Assembly: GCA_028713125.1 (NCBI GenBank)
Contig: JAQTOU010000006.1
Coordinates: 1-64,000 of the forward strand
Direction: 5' to 3'
Source: Elusimicrobiales bacterium
GTDB lineage: Bacteria > Elusimicrobiota > Elusimicrobia > Elusimicrobiales > UBA9959
DNA: 64,000 bases
The position numbers and the translations under genes were made by a program. The first letter of the stretch is position 1, and each line of letters starts with the position of its first letter. Below the pieces are notes generated by a model. The model did no database searches. It was not told where the DNA came from and saw nothing but the letters and a program-made list of their open reading frames with translations. This document shows, piece after piece, positions 375 to 62,037 of the stretch.

Positions 375-384
375 TTTTCTCTGT

Positions 385-455
385 GGGAGCGTCGGTTAAC
401 GGTAAACCAGCAGTCTCCAAAACTGCAACTGAAGGTTCAATTCCTTCCGCTCCCG
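385..455 (+). tRNA. trnW: tRNA-Trp (anticodon CCA)
   Basis: A cloverleaf can be drawn directly: acceptor GGGAGCG (385-391) pairs with CGCTCCC (448-454), the anticodon stem GCAGT/ACTGC encloses loop CTCCAAA with anticodon CCA, and the T arm carries GGTTCAATTCC. The discriminator base is G455. The following bases are CCCAG, so a standard CCA end does not appear to be encoded in register. Position between rpmG and secE is common in bacteria. The 3' end is copied in the repeats that follow. Confidence 0.93.
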
Positions 456-628
456 CCCAGTTCTTTTAGTGTTTTATGTGGTTGGCGGAAGGAATTGTCT
501 GATAGGAGAAGCTCGCTAACGCTCGCAGCCGCTCCCGCCCAGATTCCTGCGGTGTTTTACGTGTTTGGCGGAAGGAATTGTTCTTGATAGGGGAGGCTCG
601 CTAACGCTCGCTGCCGCTCCCGCGAGAG
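456..628 (+). repeat. Two tandem cassettes built from copies of the tRNA-Trp 3' end
   Basis: Between tRNATrp and secE lie two diverged tandem units of about 82-85 bp. Each holds GTTTTAYG (471-478; 554-561), then GGCGGAAGGAATTG (484-497; 567-580), of which 13 nt are an exact reverse complement of the tRNA T-arm/acceptor segment 438-450. Then follow GCTCGCTAACGCTCGC and a direct copy of the tRNA 3' end: CCGCTCCCGCCCAG at 447-460 recurs exactly at 529-542, and its first ten bases recur at 614-623. No gene is seen here. The architecture resembles rtT-type repeats behind E. coli tyrT in principle, not in sequence. Confidence 0.85.
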
Positions 629-61725: not shown

Positions 61726-61766
61726 CCCTTTTAACTAAAGGGGTATAATGTAGTTCTCGGTCATAT

Positions 61767-61838
61767 GCGCCCGTGGTGAAATGGATATCACAGGAGCCTC
61801 CGAAGCTTCTAGTGCAGGTTCGATTCCTGCCGGGCGCA
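61767..61838 (+). tRNA. tRNA-Arg (anticodon CCG)
   Basis: Cloverleaf: acceptor GCGCCCG (61767-61773) with CGGGCGC (61831-61837), D arm GTGAAATGGATATCAC, anticodon stem GGAGC/GCTTC enclosing CTCCGAA (anticodon CCG), T arm GCAGG-TTCGATT-CCTGC, discriminator A838. No CCA is encoded. A TATAAT -10 is at 61744-61749, inside a CCCTTT/AAAGGG inverted repeat (61726-61743) after alaS. Confidence 0.94.
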
Positions 61839-62037
61839 AATAGTTTTATGATGCTGTTAGCGGGCAGGAATCGAACGCTCGAAGCCCGGGGGTTCGAGTC
61901 ACGGATAAACCGCATAGCGGTTTTCCGCGACCCCGGCTCGGCGATTTTGCTTCGTAAAAAATCGCCTCCGCCTTTCGGACCGGACGCGCGGCATATTATG
62001 CCGCGCTCTGAAGCCGGTCCTCACCTGCCGGGCGCGG
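61839..62037 (+). repeat. tRNA-Arg 3'-end cassette with multiple hairpins
   Basis: GTTTTATG (61843-61850) is followed by GGCAGGAATCGAAC (61863-61876), an exact 14-nt reverse complement of the tRNA T-arm (61818-61831). Then come hairpins AACCGC-ATA-GCGGTT (61908-61922), GGCGATTTT/AAAATCGCC (61940-61966), and GCGCGGCATA/TATGCCGCGC (61986-62006) nested in GGACCGG/CCGGTCC (61977-62020). The end, CCTGCCGGGCGC at 62024-62035, is an exact direct copy of the tRNA 3' end (61826-61837). The order equals that behind tRNATrp. No gene is seen. Confidence 0.82.

Follow-up and report, generated by a model that had tools for sequence, protein, structure and literature searches.

A known precedent for repeats behind a tRNA gene is the rtT array of E. 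coli tyrT, in which units repeated in tandem immediately after the gene each carry a copy of the 3' end of the tRNA. The locus analyzed here resembles it in having tandem units that each include a direct 3'-end copy. To our knowledge, the rtT units are unrelated in sequence to the units described below, contain no inverted copy of the T arm and do not follow different host tRNAs. Rickettsia palindromic elements (RPEs) were described as short non-autonomous palindromic elements that also occur in frame in protein genes and in RNA genes (PMC2229807). They comprise 105-146 bp with own terminal inverted repeats, whereas the outer arms of the tRNA-tail units consist of host sequence. The Yersinia YPAL/RU-2 elements are similarly small, lie beside dyad symmetry and show variable target duplications (3-26 bp), but a host-matched inverted arm was not described there (PMC2229807). 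REP elements, for which RAYT enzymes were reported as partners, are small palindromic repeats, some of them within genes, and are defined by a palindrome one end of which bears a GTAG or CGTC tag (PMC3733652). In contrast, the tRNA-tail units have no such tag, are present in few copies per genome, are tied to tRNA tails and show no consistent Y1 partner. Quasi-palindrome template-switch mutations and inverted triplications share with them the sense-inverted-sense order, the identical arms and the link to transcription (PMC3820800, PMC8604942, PMC7202029, PMC4689423). However, these arise at arbitrary sites, whereas the tRNA-tail units contain a conserved core in every unit at many loci. In highly transcribed DNA, template switching was shown to lengthen the identical part of inverted-repeat arms (PMC3820800); it also homogenises such arms (PMC8604942), and interstitial inverted triplications constitute a further precedent (PMC4689423). 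For the same layout behind tRNAs no description was found in the literature searched.

The stretch of DNA analyzed, here called the window, comprises 64 kb and derives from an Elusimicrobiota genome; the closest named relatives of its NusG are found in Elusimicrobia MAGs. The tRNA-Trp gene of the window is encoded in the order EF-Tu end, rpmG, tRNA-Trp, secE, nusG and rplK, as read from the sequence, and it is followed by a cassette of tandem units with a spacing of 82-85 nt (Table 1). The repeats at this locus had been noticed in a sequence-only reading, the coordinates of which all proved correct by ARAGORN and a repeat search of the window. That reading did not contain the third part common to the units, i.e., the core between the arms. 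The cassette reads as sense, inverted, core and sense, which is a micro inverted triplication. The 3' end of tRNA-Trp (384-460) is encoded as CCCA in the window's genome (G000) and in the close relative G026, and as CCA in the other genus members. The extra C is common to the tRNA-Trp and to R1 of the window's genome, whereas the R copies in G026 read CCAG and CCAAG, which indicates a recent homogenisation from host to R.

Table 1. Coordinates of the tRNA-Trp cassette and of the type-2 arrangement behind tRNA-Arg in the 64-kb window (RC, reverse complement; L, left arm; R, right arm).
Feature	Position	Strand	Basis
Host gene tRNA-Trp(CCA), first (sense) tail copy	384..459	+	ARAGORN; Rfam RF00005, 64.2 bits at 385-455
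Spacer 1, T/G-rich, between tRNA tail and inverted copy	461..483	+	sequence, spacer composition
L1, inverted tRNA-Trp T arm CAATTCCTTCCGC (485-497 = RC of 438-450) plus one extra 5' base	484..497	+	13/13 inverted repeat (repeat search)
Core 1, conserved 16-mer GCTCGCTAACGCTCGC at 511-526	498..528	+	
R1, direct copy of tRNA-Trp 3' end CCGCTCCCGCCCAG (447-460)	529..542	+	14/14 direct repeat (repeat search)
Spacer 2	543..566	+	tandem unit
L2, inverted T-arm copy (568-580 = RC of 438-450)	567..580	+	13/13 (repeat search)
Core 2, 16-mer at 596-611	581..613	+	92% identity with unit 1 over 39 nt
R2, truncated direct copy CCGCTCCCGC (first 10 nt of the 447-460 sequence)	614..623	+	repeat search
tRNA-Arg(CCG), type-2 host	61766..61839	+	ARAGORN
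Inverted tRNA-Arg T arm GGGCAGGAATCGAAC	61862..61876	+	sequence comparison
Type-2 core signature GAGCCGGGGTCGCG	61926..61939	-	orientation opposite
Direct copy of tRNA-Arg 3' end CCTGCCGGGCGC	62024..62035	+	tRNA copy at 61826-61837

Exact inverted tail copies of at least 11 nt within 200 nt were found for 5 of the 44 tRNAs in the window's genome, and exact direct tail copies of at least 11 nt likewise for 5/44. Neither kind of tail copy was reproduced by dinucleotide shuffles (0/2200 in each case), and the layout recurs behind tRNAs in relatives. In the 3.48 Mb of the window's genome the 16-mer, with at most one mismatch, is confined to units, with the exception of one additional copy immediately beyond the Gly(CCC) unit. 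Its sites are located behind tRNA-Trp (two), Gly(TCC), Thr(GGT), Gly(CCC) (two, the second without own arms) and Gly(GCC), and in every full unit of this genome the left arm is the inverted T arm of the own tRNA and the right arm a direct copy of its own 3' end. The exact 16-mer pattern is present in 23 of 295 genomes of the phylum, mostly of the genus of the window, while the reversed control pattern was found in 0/295, and at most of the retrieved sites the preceding tRNA is Gly, Thr(GGT) or Trp. The observation at tRNA-Trp is a local case of a genus-wide element and not a quirk of this tRNA. At two loci, L139 and L174 (G013 and G003), the core is antisense to a gene and located at its 3' end, beside an ATTGCC/GGCAAT hairpin; judged by eye, we take this gene to encode a microcompartment vertex protein of the EutN/CcmL type.

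Altogether 85 distinct units were aligned from about 30 related Elusimicrobiota genomes, with tRNA-Gly (all three isoacceptors), Thr(GGT) and Trp as hosts. The units, designated type 1, are about 75-125 nt long and follow the order tRNA, spacer, L, core and R, with a core of 30-35 nt in which the near-invariant 16-mer reads GCTCGCTNMCGCTCGC across the genus. L reads as tRNA nt 58 to 69-73 in reverse complement and sometimes extends into the trailer; R is a direct copy of nt 65-73, sometimes plus CCA. The boundaries are narrow: the end of L falls almost always at nt 56-58, and nt 65 is the start of R. Pairing of L with R is complete (5/5) in 63 of the 85 units and 4/5 in 21. The arms track polymorphisms of their hosts, i.e., CGCCC versus CACCC at Gly(CCC), CCCAT versus CCCTT at Gly(GCC) and ACT/ATT/ATC at Thr. 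In the Gly(CCC) units of G006 compared with those of G026 and G000 the spacers are 78-80% alike, yet tRNA, L and R changed in concert. Spacers are T-rich and A-poor, and they diverged while the 16-mer and the L:R stem were conserved. In two Gly(TCC) tails (L227 and L246) both arms were kept and the core was lost. In G015 two tandem tRNA-Gly(GCC) genes are each followed by a terminator and L-arm sequence, the repeat unit including the whole tRNA (L240), and behind tRNA-Trp of G006 the unit is followed by several slipped tandem copies of the R-arm-like repeat CCGCTCCCGCAAGAGCAA (L064).

Presence and copy number of the units differ between close relatives. Recognisable units were found at 22/32 Gly(CCC), 20/28 Gly(GCC), about 20/29 Gly(TCC) and 11/27 Thr(GGT) tails, counts that take in a few loci outside the genus, and the Trp unit occurs in 5 of 20 genus genomes in one to three tandem copies. 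Alignment with empty sites at Trp shows that the original trailer falls after the right copy. As units are kept at Gly tRNAs in most genus genomes, a useful function is possible. Units are also found at sites other than tRNA tails. In G009 the same layout is built from the sequence of a terminator, with 18 nt of inverted and 17 nt of direct host copies (L164); the flanks of this insertion are not conserved in the relatives used for the empty-site comparison. G027 has a clean in-frame insertion of 51 nt in a protein gene, directly after GATTCC, that is missing from all 11 orthologues aligned, most of which already contain the hexamer. The insert starts with CATCGC T GCGATGGGAAT, which forms a palindrome together with the host hexamer. 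This would be expected if the 3' end of the host had annealed to an L-bearing strand and been extended to the 5' end of that strand. The hosts Gly(TCC), Thr(GGT) and Trp are encoded next to one another in a single tuf-secE cluster, in relatives within a stretch of about 2 kb around tuf, and the insertion in G027 is about 1 kb from tRNA-Gly(CCC), both of which fit a local spread. The suggestion of the sequence-only reading that the direct copies are scars of an element targeting tRNA 3' ends is largely borne out by the empty-site comparison, the copy-number variation, the clean insertion in the protein gene and the occurrence at several tRNAs.

It had further been suggested that the inverted T arm could act on the tRNA precursor, either as a competitor of cloverleaf folding or as a guide for 3' processing. 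In an RNA acting in cis, L would pair with the T-arm strand of the precursor and R would serve as second acceptor strand, thereby delaying, gating or guiding tRNA folding and 3' processing, and the matching would be maintained by selection on base pairing. The co-variation of arms and host resembles compensatory changes, the conservation of the 16-mer and of the L:R stem beside diverged, T-rich and A-poor spacers is compatible with such a role, and the cloverleaf is disrupted in the MFE fold computed for tRNA-Trp with its units. However, this fold is no more stable than shuffled sequences (z -0.82), and a search with the Rfam covariance models returned no family for the cassette, only the tRNA and sub-threshold chance matches. 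Moreover, Gly(GCC) units are located past an intrinsic terminator, a hairpin of 8-11 bp with T after it in the majority of cases, and match their host just as well (13/19 L arms perfect, 6/19 with one mismatch). The arms also copy trailers, a terminator and ORF sequence, and many close relatives have no units. Among the 20 units whose L reaches nt 72, i.e., covers the whole acceptor strand, the inverted repeat runs at least 5 nt into the trailer of its own locus in 12, versus 14 of 378 trailer-swapped pairings. At L163 and L252 nearly the whole trailer forms one palindrome with a loop of 3-4 nt, and the palindrome at L170 has its centre in the terminator hairpin that follows Gly(GCC). An RNA stem evolving by compensatory changes could produce a similar extension into the trailers, but the loops range from 3 to more than 50 nt and many units are not extended. 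The Gly(GCC) units past a terminator, the run-on into trailers, the insertion in G027 and the variation in presence and copy number favour an origin at the level of DNA over RNA pairing in cis. An RNA cause of the arm matching is not supported, since units past a terminator match equally and arms copy non-tRNA sequence as well, and we regard it as unlikely; the units may nevertheless exert an effect as RNA.

At the level of DNA, the layout might result from mutation only. Stalling of forks at transcribed tRNA hairpins would generate sense-inverted-sense triplications and, by slippage, arrays, and the core would be a hitchhiking junction and not an element. The order of the copies and the maintained identity of the arms are those of quasi-palindrome mutations and inverted triplications (PMC7202029, PMC3820800, PMC4689423), and the multiple slipped R copies in G006 (L064) and G016 (L097) as well as the palindromes extended into trailers agree with this. 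But one core with its 16-mer recurs at different tRNAs, at a terminator and in an ORF, and therefore the core moves, which makes a purely mutational origin improbable. The tRNA 3' end is directly repeated at both ends of the insert, and integration into tRNA genes typically leaves direct repeats that extend from the T loop through the 3' end. The units could accordingly be decayed att sites of tRNA-targeting integrative elements, with R as attR, the tRNA tail as attL and the interior deleted, a view to which type-2 R copies of up to 21 nt including CCA would conform. From independent islands, however, neither an inverted host-matched L nor one constant core at dozens of loci is expected, and we consider such an origin quite improbable. 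Units of 75-125 nt are too short to hold an integrase gene, and no such gene was noticed. Mobilisation of REP-like elements by a Y1 (RAYT/IS200) transposase would be in line with small palindromic units within and between genes and with Y1_Tnp matches in 27/32 genus genomes. It is very improbable, given that the carriers G003, G016, G025 and G031 have no Y1_Tnp match, that only one match, a partial one covering positions 40-120 of 121, was found in the window's genome and that no GTAG or CGTC tag was found at the palindrome end of the 85 aligned units. RAYT/Y1 transposase as mobiliser is disfavoured because it is absent from several carriers.

The best explanation is that the cassette is a small non-autonomous insertion element, the host-matched arms of which are made and kept by fold-back (template-switch) DNA synthesis, and we assign to this a probability of about 0.5. 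The core with the 16-mer would be the element proper, and the arms would be copies of adjoining sequence and not carried cargo. An L-core single strand or a stalled nascent strand may anneal to the GATTCC-like T-arm sequence of the tRNA tail. The strand would fold back, DNA synthesis would copy the tail in inverted form, giving L, and then pass through the core and return to the tail, giving the direct copy R. Later on, quasi-palindrome template switching could keep L identical to the changing host tRNA, while recombination between direct repeats could keep R identical and generate tandem units. The conservation of the 16-mer is far above the expectation for a passive filler and, like the persistence of units at Gly tRNAs, counts against the fold-back explanation. 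The arm boundaries, too, are sharper than random template switching predicts, which hints at a specific enzyme or at selection. A stop of reverse transcriptase at m1A58 of the tRNA as origin of the L end was rejected as not general, with ends at nt 56-58 in type 1 and at nt 54 in type 2. One core is found at several unrelated sites with an empty site in relatives, and the units are placed with the small non-autonomous palindromic elements on account of their mobility and core conservation; a feature that defines MITEs is lacking, as there are no own constant terminal inverted repeats and the outer arms are host-specific.

A second type of arrangement, found in the window behind tRNA-Arg (Table 1), has a core that is unrelated to the type-1 core. 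It contains the signature GAGCCGGGGTCGCG and further stems of variable sequence and is found behind tRNA-Ser, Arg, Met, Val and Trp in several Elusimicrobiota genera; a related arrangement without the exact signature is found at tRNA-Ala. The type-2 L is the exact reverse complement of nt 54-64 in 8 of 10 cases, and the type-2 R matches its host for 8 to 21 nt, the longest including CCA, and often starts at nt 56. Of the hints at a general process that makes the arms, the strongest is the arm logic common to two unrelated cores; for the involvement of some specific enzyme or structure it is the fixed position of the arm boundaries. Tentatively, and with more doubt than confidence, the units might represent a minimal mobile DNA without own ends. 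A core of 30-35 nt would insert beside hairpin-forming tRNA tails and build custom host-derived inverted and direct arms by fold-back synthesis at every site, the fit being kept as the tRNA evolves, and the type-2 core would follow the same arm logic.

If the fold-back explanation holds true, bacterial tRNA tails are places where palindromes matched to the host are built and repaired again and again by fold-back DNA synthesis, and a tiny element is able to spread without own ends. The family would then offer template switching in many naturally replicated cases, together with matching empty sites, and the formation of inverted triplications and the upkeep of arm identity would become testable from sequence. 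It would also be a warning that base-pair covariation 3' of tRNAs need not signal an RNA function.

Further rearranged tRNA tails were observed in these genomes. In G010 the sequence GTGTGCCCAGCATG... and a piece of an LtrA-like ORF lie behind the terminator of tRNA-Gly(GCC) and replace the L arm (L150); judged by eye, this is presumably a fragment of a group II intron. Behind tRNA-Ala(CGC) of the window's genome a second partial tRNA-Ala 3' half, consisting of a 24-nt exact tail copy plus trailer, follows the gene without an inverted arm (L038). Lone tRNA-Gly 3' halves with no intact tRNA-Gly gene near are present in four genomes (G030:C40:49952-49993, G028:C41:140-181, G012:C112:10291-10332 and G017:C69:70950-70991) and are possibly attachment sites of islands.
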